Assembly: GCA_003170415.1 (NCBI GenBank)
Contig: PMZJ01000029.1
Location: 27,985-91,984 of the forward strand
Source of the DNA: Phycisphaerales bacterium
GTDB taxonomy: Bacteria; Planctomycetota; Phycisphaerae; Sedimentisphaerales; Anaerobacaceae
Reading direction: 5' to 3'
Length of the DNA: 64,000 nt
The notes under the pieces were generated by a model. The model was not told the origin of the DNA and did no database searches. It worked only from the letters and a program-made list of their open reading frames with translations. This document shows, piece by piece, positions 2,401-35,689 of the stretch (position 1 is the first letter of the stretch; each line of letters begins with the position of its first letter). A program made the translations under genes and the position numbers.

Positions 2401-2500
2401 CGGGGAGCAAGCGCAGCGACCTGTGGTGAGCGCAGTCGAACCAGTCGAAGGGCCTGCCCTGCAACTCGTCCGGCGTAGCGAAGCGAAGTCGGAAGCTCCT
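2401..2500. repeat. Dispersed TCGAA-type repeat
   Basis: Contains CCTGTGGTGAGC, GTCGAACCAGTCGAAGG and GGCGTAGCGAAGCGAAG. The same blocks recur near 13.6, 15.0, 18.9, 19.6 and 24.2 kb of the window. In some frames such copies translate to the peptide ACPERSRMG, a mark of this repeat type. Confidence 0.7.
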
Positions 2501-10800: not shown

Positions 10801-11380
10801 TCTATCGCCTCCTGATATCTTCCGTCATCCTCACGTACAGCGTCCCATTTTTCCTGCTCGCCAGTATATACACATAATATTCGCACATCTCTGCATTATA
10901 TCGCATTTTTCAACCAATTTCCGCATCCCTAAATCAGAAATCATAAATCCCAAATCATAAATCCGAAACCCCTTGTTTCTCCCGACAATTCCGAGGACAA
11001 TACCTGTCCTCCGTAGTCCCTTAGGGACGAAGGAGGATGGCGGGGTTACACAATGAACGCCCCCATCGGGCGTTTGTATATAGCCCCGCTCTCCGGGCGG
11101 GGTTGCCTGCGCGAGGTCTGCTTAAACCCTTATCCGCCGCAAGCGGGGTTACTCAATGAACGCCCCCATCGGGCGTAATTTACTTCATCATTGGATATTC
11201 GATATTGGACATTTAATTCCGTCCTCCGTCTACTGTTCACCTCCTCTACTCTCCATTTTCTCGCGCATCACGCTTTCCCCTTGTTTCCACCGACAATCCA
11301 GAGGATAATAATACTGACAAAAGCAGGACTTACGCACCTTTGAACCCAAAAACAACCATAAATACGGCGATTGAGCAGTA
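10801..11380. other. Repeat-rich intergenic region
   Basis: No gene supported. It holds low-complexity AATCATAAATCC-type repeats (10925-10970), a GTAGTCCCTTAGGGACGAAG palindrome (11015-11034), two REP-like units (11036-11180) and a stretch of the dispersed intergenic type before the TPR gene. Confidence 0.6.
11036..11180 (+). repeat. REP-like double-hairpin element, two units
   Basis: Two copies of GGGGTTACNCAATGAACGCC continuing into an ATCGGGCGT hairpin arm (11042-11073 and 11145-11176). Between them are TTTGTATATA, a GCCCCGCTCTCCGGGCGGGG hairpin and GAGGTCTGCTTAA. The order and sequence match, inverted, the element at 18505-18625 over about 90 bases. This family clusters before the Y1 transposase at 19023. 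Confidence 0.85.
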
Positions 11381-13285
11381 ATGAAAGAAAACCAAAAAAC
11401 GTACTTGGGTTTTAGGCCGATATTCATAAAGCGTTTTCTACGCGGTTCCGCCAAATCCTTACCTGTCCTTGGCCCTCTGCTCAAGGAAATCACCTTTGGT
11501 GTTCTCGATGATGAGTCGGCCAAGGCTGAATCTGAAAAAATACATAACAAGTTGGACGAGATACTCAAAGGTCAGGATTATCAGGAAGTTGACTTTGCCG
11601 AAATCCTTCTCGCACTGCATATACAGACGGATGTAAATGAAACGATAAGTAAAAGACTCAAAGAGATTGAACAATCTCTAAGAGATGACAGTGATTCGCC
11701 ATTTCCAGAATACTTCGGAAAGGCCCTCGATAAGGTTATTGCTGGAAATGAAAAGATACGTGCCGACATACAAAAACTATCCGATGATCATAAGCAGCAA
11801 TCAGTGGAACACAAACAGCAAATAGATCTGCTTAATGAAATACTTGCAAAAATAGCTATAGATGAAAAAACCAAACTTGCCATAGAAAAAATATTCTTAA
11901 ACATCCTTCACAAAGAGGATATTCCGCAATGGCAGTGGCCGGAAAAACTTCAGGAAATAACCAAACACCATCAGGAACTGTTGGCCAAATTACAAACGAT
12001 TGAATCTGGCGACCCGGCGGTGGATACGCTCCGGGATAAGGCCCGCCGGATAATAGAACTTGGCGATTACGACAATGCCGACCAGCTCCTGCGGAAGGCA
12101 GTGGACATTGACCGAAAGGCCATAAAATCCCAACAGGAAAGATTAGACAACCGTAAACTCTCAATGAGCCAATCACTGGCAAGCCGGGCCGACCTTGCCG
12201 AAACAAAGCTGGATTACAAAAAAGCAATCGACCTCTACAAAGAGGCCTTGGATATTTTGCCGCAGAATCAGCAAGCCATACAGGCTGTGTACATGAATAA
12301 TCTGGCTTTCCTACATCATACCGTCGCCAATTATAACGAGGCCGAGCCGCTGATGAAACAGGCGCTGGCGATTGATGAAGCCCGTCTCGGCAAAGACCAT
12401 CCGAAGGTAGCCATCCGATTAAACAACTTGGCGCTGTTGTATCAGGCGACGAATCGGCTGGCGAAGGCCGAGCCACTGTTCAAACGGGCGCTGGCGATTG
12501 ATGAAGCCAGTTTCGGCAAAGACCATCCGAACGTGGCCACCCGATTAAATAACCTGGCGATCTTATACCAAGCGACGAATCGTATGGCGGAGGCCGAGCC
12601 GCTGAAGAAACGGGCGTTGGCGATATGGGAAAAATCCCTCGGTGAAAATCATCCTCAGGTGGCGACGGCATTAAACAACCTGGCGATGTTGTATTATGCG
12701 ACGAATCGGTTTTCCGAAGCCGAGCCAATGTTCAAACAGGCGCTGGCGATTGATGAAACCAGTTTTGGCAAAGACCATCCGAACGTGGCCATCCGTCTCA
12801 ACAATCTGGCGGCGTTGTATCAGGCGACGAATCGGCTTTCCGAGGCCGAGCCGATGCTCAAACGGGCGCTGGCTATATGGGAGAAATCCCTCGGTGAAAA
12901 TCATCCTCAGGTAGCGACAGCATTGAACAACCTGGCGGGGTTGTATCAGGATACGAATCGTCTGGCGGAGGCCGAGCCGATGTACAAACAGGCGCTGGCG
13001 ATTTATGAAGCCAGTCTCGGCAAAGACCATCCGGACGTGGCCAGAGATTTAAACAACCTGGCGCAGTTGTATCAGGCAACGAATCGACTGGCGGAAGCCG
13101 AACCGCTGATGAAACGGGTGGTAGAAATACTCCTACAGTTCACCCGCCGGACGGGCCATCCGCACCCGCATTTGGAAGATGCGGTCAAAAACTATACCGG
13201 CCTGCTTAGGCAAATGGGGTATAGTAAAGACGAGGTCGATGCCCGACTGAATCGCCTCGCTCCGGAAATGTTTAAGTCGAAATGA
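11381..13285 (+). CDS. Tetratricopeptide (kinesin-light-chain type) repeat protein with N-terminal helical region
   Basis: 634 residues, no signal peptide. Residues 10-45 contain a hydrophobic, glycine-broken helix pair (FLRGSAKSLPVLGPLLKEIT), then charged coiled-coil-like helices to about 230. From about 265 to 580 there are 42-residue TPRs with the pattern HP-VA--LNNLA-LY-ATNR--EAEP--K-ALAI. Two repeat versions alternate (DEASFGKDHPNVA and WEKSLGENHPQVA), and the two WEKSLGENHPQVATALNNLA copies differ only by silent changes, so an 84-residue double unit duplicated recently. The layout resembles sensor parts of NLR-like or conflict proteins, but no nucleotide-binding or effector domain is seen. 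Function unknown. Confidence 0.75.
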   Translation: MKENQKTYLGFRPIFIKRFLRGSAKSLPVLGPLLKEITFGVLDDESAKAESEKIHNKLDEILKGQDYQEVDFAEILLALHIQTDVNETISKRLKEIEQSLRDDSDSPFPEYFGKALDKVIAGNEKIRADIQKLSDDHKQQSVEHKQQIDLLNEILAKIAIDEKTKLAIEKIFLNILHKEDIPQWQWPEKLQEITKHHQELLAKLQTIESGDPAVDTLRDKARRIIELGDYDNADQLLRKAVDIDRKAIKSQQERLDNRKLSMSQSLASRADLAETKLDYKKAIDLYKEALDILPQNQQAIQAVYMNNLAFLHHTVANYNEAEPLMKQALAIDEARLGKDHPKVAIRLNNLALLYQATNRLAKAEPLFKRALAIDEASFGKDHPNVATRLNNLAILYQATNRMAEAEPLKKRALAIWEKSLGENHPQVATALNNLAMLYYATNRFSEAEPMFKQALAIDETSFGKDHPNVAIRLNNLAALYQATNRLSEAEPMLKRALAIWEKSLGENHPQVATALNNLAGLYQDTNRLAEAEPMYKQALAIYEASLGKDHPDVARDLNNLAQLYQATNRLAEAEPLMKRVVEILLQFTRRTGHPHPHLEDAVKNYTGLLRQMGYSKDEVDARLNRLAPEMFKSK

Positions 13286-14964: not shown

Positions 14965-15200
14965 CGACCTGTGGTGAGCATCGTCGAACCAGTCGAAGGT
15001 CTAAAACTTGAACAAACGTAGCGACCTGTGGCGAGCTTGTTTATCCTGAGCTTGTCAGTGGTGAGCATAGTCGAACCAGTCGAAGGTCTAAAACCTGAGC
15101 AAACGTAGTGACCTGTGGCGAGCTTGCTTATCCTGAGCTTGTCAGTGGTGAGCATCGTCGAACCATCGAAGGAGTCGAACCGGTCGAAGGGCTAAAATCT
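14941..15200. repeat. Tandem array combining the gpsA tail and TCGAA-type repeat
   Basis: Three or so imperfect units of about 60-110 bases. Each runs from GACCTGTGGYGAGC through GTCGAACCAGTCGAAGG to TAAAACYTGARCAAACGTAG, the last part being the final codons of the gpsA remnant. Later units gained an inner ATCCTGAGCTTGTCAGTGG segment. Confidence 0.8.
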
Positions 15201-15678
15201 GAAACCCGAAATTGATGCCTTGCCTGCCCTGCGTAGCTTTAGCGAAGAAGGGCGTCGTCCTGTCTGCGAAGCCATGCGTAGCCCCCCTTGCCCCTGCGTC
15301 TCGTTTTGTGCACCCCCCTGTTTCGCTTTGCGAAGCCCCTCAACTTGCTTCGCAAGAAACACCAGGGGCGAACAAAGCGTGGGGCGGGCTTCGCAAAACG
15401 GCAGGGGTCAAAGGGTTAAAGCCCGAACACCCAGATATCGGCTGATATCTCCTCGCTTTTTGTCATTGCGACCCCCGCTGCTGTCTTGCGACAGCAAGAC
15501 ACGGGGGAAAGCAATCTCCGTAACTCAAAACTAAACACTCAACATTAACCCACCCCTACCCGACACGTAACGGCCTGTCCCGCCGTAGCCCTTGGCGAAG
15601 GGGGAAGCGCAGAGCCCGCTTCGGAATCTTCAACCAGCCAAAAAACTTGACCGCCCAAACTTTCATAAACCAAAATGA

Positions 15679-18504: not shown

Positions 18505-18625
18505 GATATATCCGCCTGTGGCGGATAAGGGGTTAAGCAGACCTCACGCGGGCAACCCCGCCCGGAGAGCGGGGCTATATACAAACGCCCGATGCGGGCG
18601 TTCAAGGGGGATTAAGGTTTGAGCG
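18505..18625 (-). repeat. REP-like double-hairpin element (complete)
   Basis: Read on the minus strand: TTGAACGCCCGCATCGGGCG hairpin, TTTGTATATA, GCCCCGCTCTCCGGGCGGGG hairpin, then GTGAGGTCTGCTTAACCCC and CTTATCCGCC. It matches the copy at 11036-11180 almost base for base. Confidence 0.88.
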
Positions 18626-18724
18626 AATCTCGCGATTGCACTCCGCCTGTGGCGGACAAACGTGAATCTGACAAATCGGACATGTAGGACATGTAGGATG
18701 GGAAGGGGATTTGAAATTTGAGAG

Positions 18725-18795
18725 AATCCGCCTGCGGCGGATAAGAGGTTAAGTGTTCCTCGCGCAGGCAATCCCGGCCGGAGAGCGGGGGAATT
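18725..18795 (-). repeat. REP-like element, partial
   Basis: Carries the CCGCCTGCGGCGGATAAGAG, TTCCTCGCGCAGGCAA and CCGGCCGGAGAGCGGGG parts, but lacks the TATATACAAA linker and outer hairpin. Confidence 0.7.
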
Positions 18796-18798
18796 AAT

Positions 18799-18880
18799 TT
18801 AAGCAGGCCTCACGATTGCAACCCCGGCCAGAGGCCGGGGCTATATACAAACGACCATAAGATGGTCGTTCAGAGGGGAT
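18799..18880 (-). repeat. REP-like element with a changed hairpin
   Basis: Has GCAGGCCTCACGATTGCAAC, then CCCCGGCCAGAGGCCGGGG, TATATACAAA, and the outer hairpin ACGACCATaagATGGTCGT. The outer arms differ from other copies, yet pair with each other, so base changes are compensated. Confidence 0.8.
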
Positions 18881-18899
18881 AATATATACGTCATTGGCA

Positions 18900-18985
18900 A
18901 AACGGGCGGTGTGGGGTTATATACAAACGCCCACAGTGGTTCGACAAGCTCACCATAAAATAGTGGGCGTTCAGGGGGGTGCGTC
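18900..18985 (-). repeat. REP-like element with a nested second repeat
   Basis: GTGGGGTTATATACAAACGC leads into the hairpin ACGCCCAC...GTGGGCGT, ending in TTCAGGGGGG. The loop holds GTTCGACAAGCTCACC, the core of the TCGAA-type family, so one repeat lies inside another. Confidence 0.75.
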
Positions 18986-19002
18986 GCTGGCGAGGCCAGC
19001 GA
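18984..19002 (+). promoter_or_regulatory. Hairpin just before the transposase start
   Basis: TCGCTGGCGAGGCCAGCGA forms a 7-base stem with a 5-base loop, ending 20 bases before the ATG of the Y1 transposase. It could limit translation or be a recognition hairpin. Confidence 0.5.
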
Positions 19003-19022
19003 TTTAAGGTTAGAATACAAGC

Positions 19023-19466
19023 ATGGCGAAAACATTAGGGTATATGATAACGTTCACAATGTACGGGACATGGCTACAGGGGGACAAGAGGGGTTTTGTT
19101 AAAGATGGAGAAGTGCGAGGTGAAAATACAGCATTGAAGAAAAGCAACGCCGAGAGTATGTCGGGGAGTGAAGTAAAATTCGGGCGAAAAAAAAAGGAAA
19201 TTGTAATGGGGGCGATCACAGAGGCGGCGAAGAGGTTCAAGCAAAAGATTCTCGCGATGGGGGTGTTTTCGAAGCACGTTCATATTGTGTGTGAATACGT
19301 CGATGTCCCAATAGGGGTTATTGTTGGTTATTACAAGAACGCAGGGCGAGTGGCACTGCAGAAAAACGGGTTCAAGGGGAGAGTGTGGACAAATGGCTAT
19401 AATACGAAGTTCTGTTTCGATGAAAAGTCATTGAAAAATAGAATTGAATATGTTGAGGGGCATTGA
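19023..19466 (+). CDS. REP-associated tyrosine transposase-like (Y1/HUH) protein
   Basis: 147 residues. The start MITFTMYGTWLQGDKRGF is typical of Y1_Tnp proteins linked to REP sequences. The HUH metal motif is H85-V-H87 (SKHVHIV); the candidate nucleophile tyrosine is Y103 or Y104 in VGYYKNAGRV; RVWTNGYNTKFCFDEKSLKNRIEYV is the usual C-terminal block. No TnpB or IS ends are seen, so a domesticated RAYT rather than an IS200 element is likely. The REP-like array directly upstream supports this. All key residues are present, so it may be active. Confidence 0.82.
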   Translation: MAKTLGYMITFTMYGTWLQGDKRGFVKDGEVRGENTALKKSNAESMSGSEVKFGRKKKEIVMGAITEAAKRFKQKILAMGVFSKHVHIVCEYVDVPIGVIVGYYKNAGRVALQKNGFKGRVWTNGYNTKFCFDEKSLKNRIEYVEGH

Positions 19467-20031
19467 AACACAGATTGCCGGGGCAGGCAGGGAACGCTTC
19501 GCGGGATATTAGAACAGTCGAACAGTTGAGCAGTGGAAATCTGCCCGCCAAAAGGCGACTATTTAACAAGTATAACATCAACTGTCGTAAGCACTTACAA
19601 ATAAGTAGGGGACCCATTCGACTGCGCTCAGGGCAGGCATTTTTGCCATCATTTTTGATGTAACTACTTTCAATACAATGGTTTAAATTCTGGACAAAAA
19701 CGGTTGTTATCCATTTTCGCGCAAGTGTTTTTGGGCCAAATCCAAAATTCTGAAAATTTTTTCTATTCCTTTTCCCACAAGGACTTAAGTGCATTTCGGG
19801 GCATCCCAAAAATCGGAATTTTCGTCAAAAGCGCGCAAGTTCGCGCCATATACAGAGGGACGCGCGAAGCCGGGACGCTTCGCGAGAAAGTAGATAGGTG
19901 AACAGGCGAGCAGATGAGAAAAAGGCAGAGAACGGAGGACAGAAGACGGATGACTGAGAACGGAAGAATGAAAAATTTAGAATTTAGAATTGCGAATGTA
20001 GAAGTAATGGCAAAAAAGGAGGATTGAGAAA
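19467..20031. other. Intergenic region with repeat fragments
   Basis: No gene supported. TCGAA-type copy at 19613-19640 (translating to ACPERSRMG on the minus strand), AACAGTCGAACAGTTGAGCAG (19511-19531), and an AT-rich part 19700-19830 with GGCCAAATCCAAAATTCTGA. A GGAGG Shine-Dalgarno for the next gene lies at the end. Confidence 0.55.
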
Positions 20032-23259: not shown

Positions 23260-24390
23260 ATGGGTTATTTTCGCGATAATATCGAACAGATGAAAGGGTA
23301 TGAGCCGGGGTTTCAGCCCCCCGCCGATTTGCTTCGCAAATGCGAAACAGCGGGGGCAGGCCTGGTAAAGCTCAACACCAATGAGAACCCTTACCCCCCA
23401 ACGCCGGCGGTTTTGAAGGCGATTAGTGAGATAAAGACGGAGCAGTTGCGCAGGTATCCTGACCCGATGGGTAATGTGTTTCGCGAGGCGGCGGCGAAAA
23501 TCAATGGGGTAGAGCCGGACTGGATTATGGTCTGCAACGGCGGGGACGAGCTGCTGAGTATGGCGTTTACGGCATTTTGCGATAAAAAGCGGCCGGTTGC
23601 GTATCCCGTGCCGACGTATTCACTTTACCCGGTGCTGGCGCAAATTCAGGGCTGCAAGGCACTCGAGGTGCCCTTCGATGAGGAATTTAATCTGCCTTCA
23701 AAATTAGCGAGGACCAAAGCGGCGTTGACAATCGTATGCAATCCGAACGCACCAAGCGGAACAGTTATAGAAACGGAAGAGCTTGCGGAATTAGCGGCGG
23801 AGATAAAGGGCGTATTGCTGATTGATGAGGCATACGTGGATTTCGCAGAGCAAAACTGTACTGAATTAGTCAAACAGTTCGATAATGTAATTATACTTCG
23901 CAGCTTGAGCAAAGGGTATTCGCTTGCTGGGTTGCGCTTTGGATACGCGATTGCCAAGCCGGGGTTGATAGAGGGACTGCTGAAGGTCAAGGATTCATAC
24001 AACGCAGACACGATAGCGATAACGGCGGCAACAGCGGCGATTAGCGACCAGGATTACTTCAAGCAAACGATTGAGAAAGTAAAGGCGGAACGCAAACGGC
24101 TAAGTGAGCAGTTGAGAGCGATGGGCTTTACGCTGCCTGACAGCTCGTCGAATTTTGTTTTCGCTGAACCACCTTCGGCAACCCGTTCGACTGGTTCGAC
24201 AAGCTCACCACAGGCATGCTCAGGGCGGGCAAGCCGGGCGAAAAGTATTTTTGATAAACTCGTGCAGCGGAATATTTATGTGCGATACTGGGATTTGCCC
24301 GGCATCGAGAATAAGCTGAGAATAAGCGTCGGGACAAAAGAACAGAATGATACGCTTTTGTCGGCGTTGAAAGAAATTGTATCCGCGTAA
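23260..24390 (+). CDS. hisC: Histidinol-phosphate aminotransferase with an in-frame repeat insertion
   Basis: 376 residues. PLP enzyme of histidine synthesis. NTNENPYPPTP at the N-terminus, CNPNAPSGTVI, DEAYVDF, the PLP lysine K218 in LRSLSKGYSLAGLRFGY, and LRISVGT at the end. Between FVFAEPP and AKSIFDKL about 20 extra residues (304-323, rich in Ser/Thr/Arg/Ala) are encoded by a TCGAA-type dispersed repeat (24172-24238). Normal HisC has a short loop here, so the protein probably tolerates the insert. AAGGAG lies 5-6 bases before the ATG. Confidence 0.94.
   Translation: MGYFRDNIEQMKGYEPGFQPPADLLRKCETAGAGLVKLNTNENPYPPTPAVLKAISEIKTEQLRRYPDPMGNVFREAAAKINGVEPDWIMVCNGGDELLSMAFTAFCDKKRPVAYPVPTYSLYPVLAQIQGCKALEVPFDEEFNLPSKLARTKAALTIVCNPNAPSGTVIETEELAELAAEIKGVLLIDEAYVDFAEQNCTELVKQFDNVIILRSLSKGYSLAGLRFGYAIAKPGLIEGLLKVKDSYNADTIAITAATAAISDQDYFKQTIEKVKAERKRLSEQLRAMGFTLPDSSSNFVFAEPPSATRSTGSTSSPQACSGRASRAKSIFDKLVQRNIYVRYWDLPGIENKLRISVGTKEQNDTLLSALKEIVSA
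24172..24238 (-). repeat. Dispersed TCGAA-type repeat inside hisC
   Basis: Read on the minus strand it contains CCTGAGCATGCCTGTGGTGAGC and TTGTCGAACCAGTCGAACGG, the same blocks as the array at 14941-15200. Its length and phase keep hisC open. Confidence 0.85.
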
Positions 24391-27433: not shown

Positions 27434-28924
27434 ATGGGCTTACAGCTATATAACAGTTTAACGAGACGGAAAGAGGAGTTTAAGCCGATAAATAAGGACA
27501 GGGTCGGGATATATGTTTGCGGGCCGACGGTTTATGGGCACGCGCATCTTGGACACGCGAAAAGCTACGTCAGCTTCGATATTCTCGTCCGCTATATGCG
27601 ATACCTCGGCTATAACGTAACTTATGTCCAGAATATCACAGACGTGGGACACTTGACGGACGATGCGGACCAGGGTGAGGATAAAATCGCAAAGGCCGCG
27701 GCAAAGGCACACACGCACCCGATGGCATTAGCAGAAAAATACACAAAGAGTTACTTTGACGATATGGACAAGTTAAACTGCGTCAGGCCCGATATAAGCC
27801 CGCGGGCGAGCGGACATATCGTCGAGCAAATCGAATTAGTAAAGACGCTTATCGCTAAAGGTTACGCATACGAAGCCAACGGGTCGGTTTATTTCGACGT
27901 TTCAAAATTCGCCGAATACGGGAAACTTTCGGGCAGAAAAGTCGAGGATATGATTGCGGGGGCACGGGTGGAGGTATCGCAGGAAAAGAGGAACCCGGCG
28001 GATTTCGCCCTTTGGAAAAAGGCGGAGGCGAATCATATTATGCAATGGCCAAGCCCGTGGGGACAGGGATTCCCCGGCTGGCATTTAGAATGCTCGGTAA
28101 TGAGCACAAAATATCTTGGTCAGCCATTTGATATTCACGGGGGCGGGCTTGAAAACCAGTTCCCGCATCACGAATGTGAAATCGCGCAGGCGGAGGCGGC
28201 AACCGGCAAGCAATTCGTAAAATACTGGCTGCATAATAATATGGTTACAGTCGATGGCCAGAAGATGGGCAAGAGTTTGGGCAATTTTATCACGCTAAAA
28301 CAGGTGTTTAGCGATTCGCCGGATGCTATGCACGAGCGATTGAGCAGGAAATACGATTCGCTTGCGGTTCGGCAATTTATTTTAACCAGCCATTACAGAA
28401 GCACGCTCGATTTTTCAGATGAGGCGCTTCATGCGGCGCAGAGCGGATACGACAAATTAACGGACGCGGTCATTGCGGTAAGAAAACAAGTCAAAAACTC
28501 GACCAAAGGCCCAATAGCTAACGATGTTGAGACACACCTGAAGACGCTGAAAGAAAAATTCGAGACGGCGATGAACGACGACCTCAATACGTCGATTGCG
28601 TTGTCGATTATGTTCGAACTGGCGGGTTTAGCCAACGAGCAGATTGCCAAAAACGCGACAAGTGAGACACTTGCGGCGATTGATAATATGTTTACGAAAC
28701 TCGGCGGCGACGTGCTGGGTATTGTTAAAGAGCAATACCAACAGCAAAGCGAAGGTAACGAGGCGATTTTAGACAAACTGGTGGCCGTCTTAATCGAGCA
28801 AAGAAAAACGGCGAAACAAAACAAGGATTTCGCTACTGCGGATACGCTGCGGAAAAGGATTGAGGAAATCGGGATTGTTCTCGAAGATAAACCCGGCGGA
28901 GTAACCGGCTGGAGAATGAAATAA
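27434..28924 (+). CDS. cysS: Cysteinyl-tRNA synthetase
   Basis: 496 residues, class I synthetase. The HIGH-type motif is PTVYGHAHLGHAKS near residue 32-45, CxxxPTVYG holds a zinc Cys, and HGGGLENQFPHHECEIAQ supplies other zinc ligands. The KMSKS motif reads KMGKS (GQKMGKSLGN). The C-terminal DALR-like helical part is present. Starts 3 bases after ispF. Confidence 0.97.
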   Translation: MGLQLYNSLTRRKEEFKPINKDRVGIYVCGPTVYGHAHLGHAKSYVSFDILVRYMRYLGYNVTYVQNITDVGHLTDDADQGEDKIAKAAAKAHTHPMALAEKYTKSYFDDMDKLNCVRPDISPRASGHIVEQIELVKTLIAKGYAYEANGSVYFDVSKFAEYGKLSGRKVEDMIAGARVEVSQEKRNPADFALWKKAEANHIMQWPSPWGQGFPGWHLECSVMSTKYLGQPFDIHGGGLENQFPHHECEIAQAEAATGKQFVKYWLHNNMVTVDGQKMGKSLGNFITLKQVFSDSPDAMHERLSRKYDSLAVRQFILTSHYRSTLDFSDEALHAAQSGYDKLTDAVIAVRKQVKNSTKGPIANDVETHLKTLKEKFETAMNDDLNTSIALSIMFELAGLANEQIAKNATSETLAAIDNMFTKLGGDVLGIVKEQYQQQSEGNEAILDKLVAVLIEQRKTAKQNKDFATADTLRKRIEEIGIVLEDKPGGVTGWRMK

Positions 28925-28929
28925 AAAAC

Positions 28930-28956
28930 TGGATTCCCGCTTGCGCGGGAATGACA
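28930..28956. repeat. GGAATGACA-type hairpin repeat
   Basis: Hairpin ATTCCCGC-ttgc-GCGGGAAT flanked by TGG and GACA, directly followed by a second hairpin GCGGGCAAGATGCCCGC (28963-28979). It fills the cysS-ruvC gap and ends 8 bases before the ruvC start. Related copies at 30125 and 39997. Confidence 0.8.
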
Positions 28957-28987
28957 TGAGGCGCGGGCAAGATGCCCGCGACACGAA

Positions 28988-29490: not shown

Positions 29491-30120
29491 ATGATAGCAA
29501 GGTTGGAAGGAAAACTCGTTAAGCTGAATACCGAAAGCGCGCTGGTGCAGGTGGGCGCGGTGGGCTATGAGGTTTTGCTGCCGGGGTATTGCATAAGTGC
29601 GTTAGCGGGCAGTATCGGCTCGAATATCACGCTTTGCACGATGGAATACTATGAGGGGTCACTGGGCGGCGGGAATCTTATCCCCAGAATAGTCGGATTC
29701 CTCAGCGATGGCGAAAGGGAGTTTTTCAATAAATTTACCAGCGTCAAAGGGATAGGCGTGCGAAAGGCGCTGCGTTCGCTGACCATACCGATTGCAAGTA
29801 TAGCATCGGCGATTGAAAACGGGGACGACAAGACACTGATGGCGCTTGACGGCGTTGGTAAAAGAACGGCACAGCAGATTATCGCGGAGCTGAAAGGCAA
29901 ACTCAGCAGATTCGCAATAGGCGTTGGCCCAACGGGTGCGGCGGCGCCAGCTTTCAAACCATACCAGGCGGAGACACTTGAGATTCTGATTGCCTGGGGC
30001 GAGAAACGAAATGAGGCGATGGAGCTGATTGAGCTTGCGTGCAAGAAGCACCCGGACGCAAAAACAGCGGAAGAGTTAGTGCCTTTGGTATATAGAATGA
30101 AACAGGGCATAGAAGTATAA
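29491..30120 (+). CDS. ruvA: Holliday junction DNA helicase subunit RuvA
   Basis: 209 residues. Junction-binding tetramer subunit. N-terminal OB fold (MIARLEGKLVKLNTESALVQV), two helix-hairpin-helix motifs (FTSVKGIGVRKAL and MALDGVGKRTAQQIIAELKGKL), and the C-terminal three-helix domain that contacts RuvB. Confidence 0.97.
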   Translation: MIARLEGKLVKLNTESALVQVGAVGYEVLLPGYCISALAGSIGSNITLCTMEYYEGSLGGGNLIPRIVGFLSDGEREFFNKFTSVKGIGVRKALRSLTIPIASIASAIENGDDKTLMALDGVGKRTAQQIIAELKGKLSRFAIGVGPTGAAAPAFKPYQAETLEILIAWGEKRNEAMELIELACKKHPDAKTAEELVPLVYRMKQGIEV

Positions 30121-30124
30121 GGAT

Positions 30125-30151
30125 TGGATTCCGGCTTACGCAGGAATGACA
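30125..30151. repeat. GGAATGACA-type repeat supplying the ruvB ribosome-binding site
   Basis: TGGATTCCGGCTTACGCAGGAATGACA spans the ruvA-ruvB gap. Its AGGAA lies 7-8 bases before the ruvB ATG, and no other Shine-Dalgarno is present. Confidence 0.8.
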
Positions 30152-34735: not shown

Positions 34736-35689
34736 TCATTCTTCGATTCTGATAAAGATGTCGCCGGGGCAAACATGCCGGCCGTTGACAAAATCCGCGA
34801 AACTCATCAGGCGGGAATTTTCCGGTTTCAACTGCATAATCTGCAAGCGGTCTTTGCCGCAGATAACGTTAAGATTTTCGTCGATTGTGCCGGGAGGTAG
34901 GTTCGTTGGATTATCCATTCGCAGAATATCAGCTTTAGCGAAGATGACTCGCTCAGCCCGGCTCGATTTTTGCGACTTATAAACAGCAGACACACCCGGC
35001 CAGGGCCACAAACCAAGCATTTTTCTATGCAGCAATTCCGCCGGCTCGGTGAAATCGAGAAAACCATCGGCCTTTTGCAGCTTCGGTGCGCGGGTGGCCT
35101 TCAAGTCGTCCTGTTTTATGTATTTGGCTGTGCCAGCGGCAATCTGGTCAATGGTCGTAACGAGCAATGGCGACGCCAGTTTCGCCAGCCGGTCGTGAAG
35201 TTGGCCCGCTGATTCCTCGCCGTCAATATCGGTTTTGCATTGCGCGAGTATGTCGCCGGCGTCCATTCTTTCGGCAACCGTGATAATACTGATGCCCGTT
35301 TCGGTGTCGCCATTAATTATCGCCCAGTTTATCGGCGCCGCCCCGCGATATTTCGGCAGCAGCGACGCGTGAACGTTTATTGTTCCTTTGGGGGCAATAT
35401 CGGTAACAGCTTTGCTGATTTTCTGGCCGAAGGCGATGACAGCTAAAAGTTCAGGTTTGCAGGAACGTATTTTATCGATAATCCCGGGTGAATTCACATC
35501 AGGGGCTTCAATAACGGGTATGTTATTCTGGGCTGCCCATTCGGCGACGGGCGTGGGTTTTTCTTTACGTCCCCTGCCCGCGGGCTGTGCCGGCTGGGTA
35601 ATAACGAGAGTGATTTTATGCCGCGAGCCAAGTATCGCGTCGAGACAAGGTAAACCGAATTGGCCGCTTCCGAGATAAACGATGTTCAT
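34736..35689 (-). CDS. fmt: Methionyl-tRNA formyltransferase
   Basis: 317 residues. Formylates initiator Met-tRNA. MNIVYLGSGQFGLPCLDAIL at the N-terminus, the catalytic block VHASLLPKYRGAAPINWAI with GDTETGISI, and the C-terminal OB-like domain. Middle gene of def-fmt-rsmB, the usual bacterial order. Confidence 0.97.
   Translation of the reverse strand: MNIVYLGSGQFGLPCLDAILGSRHKITLVITQPAQPAGRGRKEKPTPVAEWAAQNNIPVIEAPDVNSPGIIDKIRSCKPELLAVIAFGQKISKAVTDIAPKGTINVHASLLPKYRGAAPINWAIINGDTETGISIITVAERMDAGDILAQCKTDIDGEESAGQLHDRLAKLASPLLVTTIDQIAAGTAKYIKQDDLKATRAPKLQKADGFLDFTEPAELLHRKMLGLWPWPGVSAVYKSQKSSRAERVIFAKADILRMDNPTNLPPGTIDENLNVICGKDRLQIMQLKPENSRLMSFADFVNGRHVCPGDIFIRIEE

Follow-up and report, generated by a model that had tools for sequence, protein, structure and literature searches.

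A tiny REP-like repeat read in frame inside hisC and other conserved genes of a Phycisphaerales genome

Rickettsia palindromic elements (RPEs) were reportedly described by Ogata in 2000, and the Nostoc repeats SDR1, SDR4 and SDR5, attributed to Elhai in 2008, are said to be 21–27 nt in length, to carry compensatory changes in their stems and to insert in their own copies as well as in other repeats. SDRs, which comprise eight sequence families in Nostoc, are not known for systematic in-frame insertion into core genes. The 2008 study is cited in PMC3116915 and PMC4390886. RPEs of the RPE-1 type have a length of 105–146 bp (PMC2229807), and RPE-4/6 are CGTC-tagged and REP-like (PMC3733652). GTAG- and CGTC-tagged REPs, including intragenic ones in Opitutus terrae, R. 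conorii and S. alaskensis, were described by Di Nocera in 2013 as imperfect palindromes of 20–40 bp which also form dimers, some of them lying in tRNA-synthetase and repair genes (PMC3733652). The CGTC type is defined by a stem of 8–9 bp, a paired AT start and a CCA tail, and is without a dedicated transposase (PMC3733652). In P. fluorescens, only 14 16-mers overlapped genes (PMC3116915). The DNA analyzed here is a stretch of 64,000 nucleotides from a Phycisphaerales bacterium (contig PMZJ01000029.1), referred to as the window, in which a short repeat was followed from the hisC gene into the 2.67-Mb genome and its relatives.

The insert in hisC

The hisC gene (23260-24390, forward strand) is an ORF encoding a histidinol-phosphate aminotransferase of 376 aa, of which residues 5–373 match the TIGR01141 hisC equivalog at 312.5 bits (cut-off 276.55); the best solved relative is 3hdo and the nearest named records are Phycisphaerales MAGs. 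It is the single HisC-grade match in the genome, and all invariant HisC columns of an 11-sequence alignment are present in its product. The earlier note held that a repeat copy is read in frame inside this gene at 24172-24238 and encodes about 20 residues (304–323), with the phase kept and the C-terminus conserved. The in-frame, repeat-encoded insert is confirmed; however, the span given to it takes in ordinary flank and is refined to 24183-24230 on the forward strand, a total of 48 bp encoding about 16 residues (about 308–323). The net length difference from congeners is a multiple of three.

The 48-bp insert is a composite of two units. The outer 24-bp unit, CCG-TTCGAC / AT-GCTCA-GG-GCGGGC, is broken after its TTCGAC and occupies 24183-24191 and 24216-24230; between its TTCGAC and GCTCA lies the inner unit of 24 bp, TGG-TTCGAC-AA-GCTCA-CC-ACAGGC (24192-24215, forward strand). 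This modular reading was drawn from the bases, the contexts of the copies and comparisons of filled and empty sites, and the inner unit is read as nested because the same architecture is seen in the dated nested insertions discussed below (L069 against G003_L174, and G001_L179 against G003_L180). The 29-mer TTCGACTGGTTCGACAAGCTCACCACAGG (24186-24214) occurs once in the window and 0 times in shuffles; it has six exact occurrences in the genome, namely hisC and five other places.

All 28 aligned HisC relatives, which comprise the congeners G003 (92% identical) and G001 (89%) together with 26 of the same family and order, lack some 18 residues that lie here between SNFVFAE (strand) and AKSIFDKL (helix), and none of them matches this loop in both length and composition. 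With collinear flanks, hisC differs from its counterparts in G003 and G001 by a net 54 bp, made up of the 48-bp composite and 6 bp of flank. The hisC insertion is younger than the split from the congeners. The AlphaFold model of HisC, built on the 11-sequence alignment (mean pLDDT 82), agrees with HisC crystal structures, best with 3hdo, and the insert is predicted to be a disordered loop between the strand at 299–303 and the helix at 326–336, with pLDDT below 50 at residues 309–323. At the nucleotide level, the fold of the 91-nt hisC region is no better than that of shuffles.

A second in-frame insert of 10 residues is present near the start of hisC (about 23320-23361, forward strand) and is also absent from congeners; it is partly palindromic, GATTTGCTTCGCAAATGCGAAACAGCGGGGG, and represents a different repeat family or a unique sequence; a search for GCGAAACAGSGGG-like sequences gave 4 where 0.33 were expected, including those at 15314, 61569 and 62687. 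Relatives have in-frame inserts of their own elsewhere, among them a different 10-residue insert in the hisC of G032, near the same N-terminal position. In the hisC of G012 (L041), the in-frame VRQAHRPERSRR consists of two inverted element halves joined at CCGTCCTGAGC, with a CGTC-like tag.

The 24-bp unit, its copies and its dated insertions

The unit has the consensus [CC or GG](N)-TTCGAC-N2/3-GCTCA-[GG or CC]-RCAGGY and measures 24 bp at dated insertions. Its outer dinucleotides, CC..GG or GG..CC, are complementary in 64 of 81 copies, a number that averages 31 and never exceeds 45 in shuffles; this supports a hairpin, although the existence of mainly two variants and the relatedness of the copies mean that possibly few independent events are represented. 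The outer stem is CCT/AGG or GGT/ACC with a bulge, and single units are predicted to fold weakly. A stop codon is present in just one of the six frames, a reverse frame with an in-frame TGA.

The looser core TTCGAC-N2/3-GCTCA has 8 matches in the window, where 0.08 would be expected. Extended by two specified bases (TTCGAC-N2/3-GCTCA-SS), the pattern gives 81 copies in the genome, 42 forward and 39 reverse, whose contexts were read as stretches around the repeat matches; the reversed control gives 0. Chance similarity as the source of the copies is ruled out by the shuffles, the expected counts and this control. The repeat had been described as otherwise intergenic, which is roughly so in the window, but genome-wide most copies (57 of 81) are inside ORFs of at least 150 aa. 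As 87% of random positions also fall in such ORFs, this indicates tolerance and not gene targeting. Such ORFs hold copies at roughly a third of the density found elsewhere (57/0.873 compared with 24/0.127), and coding DNA is thus depleted of copies, yet far less than for ordinary REPs.

For the same reason, long ORFs were not taken as proof of genes, and domain-spanned inserts and empty sites were used instead. In at least 19 genes, hisC included, a conserved Pfam or NCBIfam domain spans an in-frame insert. The interrupted proteins are HisC, PheT, ProB, ArgJ, ArgS, a macro-domain protein, IspD, a cytochrome c assembly protein, DXS, PanE, two histidine kinases, a GltD-like oxidoreductase, a GH2 enzyme, PurC, a B12-binding radical SAM protein, NDK, an amidohydrolase and a DUF2344 protein. 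On the ORF strand (n=57 copies), the three forward frames are used 26, 11 and 7 times, giving peptides of the STSSGQ/STSSPQ, FDKLRAG and LRQAQG types, respectively; the two open reverse frames are used 8 and 5 times and the stop-containing one 0 times. This use is unequal, with the Ser/Thr/Gly-rich frame dominant (chi-square p=5e-5), and the bias fits purging of less tolerable peptides. The same peptide does recur in other core genes, as the earlier note had envisaged, since STSSPQ/STSSGQ and the alternative-frame FDKLRAG, LRQAQG and ALSxVEG occur in dozens of ORFs. In simulations, random 24-bp insertions left the ORF open in 81%.

Within the window, core and repeat scans place an element copy at 2420-2452 (reverse strand) and a tandem array of 87-bp units at 14971-15188 (reverse strand), both outside any ORF of 150 aa. 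The array units combine the TTCGAC element with diverged relatives, and the first two are 94% identical. Another tandem array, at 12260-13141, has 126-bp units, with six overlapping 252-nt register copies that are 66–80% identical to the reference copy. Two forward-strand copies accompany a transposase-like gene of the Y1 type (19023-19466); one, at 18938-18955, lies just upstream in the loop of another type of palindromic repeat, and the other, at 19615-19638, lies downstream.

Filled and empty sites were compared where congener DNA was available. The net difference is exactly 24 bp at nine independent sites, which are those of PheT, ArgJ, both DXS sites, the macro-domain gene, the B12-radical SAM gene, L069, L087 and, at a different site, the ArgS of G001; it is 48 bp at two sites, the ArgS and NDK of G000. 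NDK is 169 aa long here, and most of about 22 relatives have 153 aa or fewer. Left uncounted were IspD (9), L108 (17), L102 (-12) and L093 (63, with two copies), as the flanks are diverged there or several changes overlap. No consistent target-site duplication was seen at the compared sites; the second DXS site offers a single candidate of 8 bp. At 34743-34744 (reverse strand), the site is empty in the window's genome, and G003 has an extra GCGGTGAGCTTGTCGAATCCG (21 + 3 bp, net 24), which encodes the peptide DSTSSPQ at the C-terminal end of a 325-aa ORF.

Nested insertion is dated twice, with G003 keeping a single older unit where G000 (L069) and G001 (L179) have added a 24-bp unit in its loop. 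Unrelated palindromes also hold copies in their loops: a ATTCCCGC..GCGGGAAT repeat has L084 and L116, an ATCCGCC..GGCGGAT repeat has L066, and the repeat beside the Y1 gene has the window copy at 18940. The intergenic L084/L116 insert measures 23 bp, indicating that the 24-bp length is not rigidly fixed by the mechanism, and both copies may share one origin.

The core is patchy in 61 relatives, with 0 to 166 copies and at least 40 in eleven genomes, ten of which are of the same family; a longer pattern is present in 36 of 293 other genomes of the phylum, mostly in one to a few copies. In another planctomycete family, G210:C29:25478-25570 has at least 4 tandem core copies at a spacing of exactly 24 bp, and 32 IMG/VR stretches (L193-L224) contain the exact 23-mer pattern CCTTCGACNNNGCTCAGGGCAGG. 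The exact 20-nt core CCCTTCGACAAGCTCAGGGC is found in plasmids of Sphingomonadaceae (Sphingobium and others), in several places per plasmid, but is followed there by GCGAACGG and not GCAGGC. The inspected Sphingobium copy (L225, plasmid AP027342.1) is intergenic, between convergent genes. The shared core hints at a palindrome common to more than one phylum.

Mode of spread and alternative readings

Taken together, it is likely that a tiny REP-like mobile repeat inserts in many places of the genome of this uncultured planctomycete, genes included. Each new unit enters without a consistent target-site duplication and adds exactly 24 bp, or eight codons, so that the frame is kept. New units can enter the loop of an older unit, which gives 48-bp, 16-residue inserts such as those of hisC, NDK and ArgS. 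Insertions that break the frame or fall in structurally intolerant places would be purged, and those surviving would be translated and probably sit in surface loops. It is tentatively suggested, and on balance doubtful, that the element is adapted to genes, with a multiple-of-three unit (3+2 or 2+3 head and spacer bases making up 24), five stop-free frames and in-frame self-nesting, and that it thereby spreads in a compact genome through coding DNA, at roughly a third of its rate between genes. If this were true, it would be a selfish element that is compatible with coding sequence and lives outside obligate intracellular bacteria.

Three other accounts of the inserts have been weighed against the spread of a mobile repeat. 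A positive use, in which a flexible or interacting peptide benefits the proteins and is selected for, could draw on the unequal frame use; however, the purging of harmful frames accounts for that bias equally well, the proteins are unrelated, the sites differ and the relatives show no conservation, making selection very unlikely. That hisC is a decaying pseudogene, in which an insert is harmless since the gene is dead, might be suspected from its two inserts, but is highly improbable for an open ORF with every invariant HisC column, a score above the equivalog cut-off and no other HisC-grade match in the genome. An assembly or binning artefact has to be considered in a draft genome of 43 contigs with repeats, but is hardly credible when the exact 24- or 48-bp differences recur in-frame at many loci and independent MAGs show like events at other sites (G012 hisC, G001 ArgS and G003 at 34743); moreover, a typical read is longer than the 48-bp repeat.

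What moves the repeat is a separate question. The Y1 gene at 19023-19466 (forward strand) is an IS200/REP-type transposase-like ORF of 147 aa with a PF01797 match 25.6 bits over the cut-off (C38:47178-47444, which is 19194-19460 of the window). Of three Y1 genes in the genome, it is the one with element copies nearby, about 70 bp upstream and 150 bp downstream, and a flank scan showed none near the other two. This gene also has palindromes of its own, TATATACAAACGCCC. The stretches 18510-19470 and 11054-11176 hold the gene with its own palindrome family GGGGCTATATACAAACGCCC...GGGCGTTC and an inverted 93-nt copy at 11054-11146, an arrangement which, going by sequence, looks like a REPtron. Over 61 genomes, Y1 number and copy number show a weak correlation (Spearman 0.29, p=0.025, uncorrected), and the Y1 transposase as a proven mobiliser was set aside, as support goes no further than this correlation.

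A single-strand transposase of the Y1/HUH, RAYT-like kind that works in trans on the folded hairpin is therefore kept as a candidate mobiliser. Its equal rival, to which somewhat less than an even chance is given, is another route, for example through an RNA intermediate or hairpin-based template switching, such as has been proposed for SDRs. The size, co-varying stem and self-nesting of the element match the description of SDRs, copies lie in the loops of unrelated palindromes, and Y1 gene number accounts for little of the copy number; against this route, the only Y1 gene of the window is flanked by copies on both sides. Either route leads to the same outcome in hisC, as the rival touches the mobility step only.

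Whichever route is taken, the mobile-repeat reading implies that Rickettsia-like genomes are not the only ones in which tiny repeats spread in frame through core genes, and it puts the question of what moves elements below 30 bp in testable form. With many dated filled/empty pairs in one genus, the tolerance of essential enzymes to loop insertion becomes directly measurable. For annotation, STSSGQ, FDKLRAG, LRQAQG and VRQAHRPERSRR in environmental proteins are to be read as repeat-encoded inserts and not as domain features.

Comparison with described repeat families

The likeness to Rickettsia palindromic elements that had been proposed for this repeat, with a different sequence, is supported. 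Both are found in-frame in many unrelated conserved genes as well as between genes, with relatives lacking the inserts, and in-frame insertion into conserved genes with absence from orthologues, by which RPEs are recognized, is seen for the 24-bp element. In contrast, the unit differs from RPEs in sequence and in its length of 24 bp, it nests in itself, and it occurs in Phycisphaerae-related MAGs and is not confined to Rickettsia; the planctomycete lineage is not obligately intracellular as far as known.

Compared with tagged REPs, the terminal GTAG tetranucleotide is absent, the consensus tail being RCAGG (CCTGY on the reverse strand). In CGTC REPs, a CGTC, TGTC or CCTC tag directly precedes the stem; such a tag does not appear to be constant here, the bases before CTGAGC on the reverse strand being TGTC or TGCC in CC/GG-type copies and TGTG or TGCG in GG/CC-type copies. 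The stem of 8–9 bp with a paired AT start and the CCA tail of the CGTC type are likewise lacking in the 24-bp element. GTAG REPs mobilised by RAYT are physically associated with a RAYT/Y1 transposase gene; of the three Y1 genes here, one has copies on both sides. Whereas GTAG REPs are predominantly extragenic, most copies here are within ORFs and not between genes (57 of 81, with 19 inside conserved domains). The window also has TGGATTCCCGCTTGCGCGGGAATGACA-type palindromes at 28918-28984 and 30119-30151, absent from congeners, which appear to fit the CGTC-1/dRS3 REP pattern with a TGTC tag, a ATTCCCGC stem and a CCA tail.

The Nostoc SDRs are alike in size (21–27 nt against 24 bp), in compensatory stem changes and in self-insertion, but are cyanobacterial sequences, whereas the present element is planctomycete and is found in-frame in core genes; this comparison covers size, stem and self-insertion. 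In the literature collection searched, no paper contains the element's core sequence or its peptides, and further searches brought up no case closer than the RPEs and REPs. As it lacks the GTAG tag and the stem and tail of CGTC REPs, and differs from RPEs in sequence and length, the element is best read as a separate family, REP-like and comparable to RPEs, intragenic REPs and SDRs, and is notable for a unit of exactly 24 bp, for its compatibility with reading frames and for how many of its copies lie in core genes.
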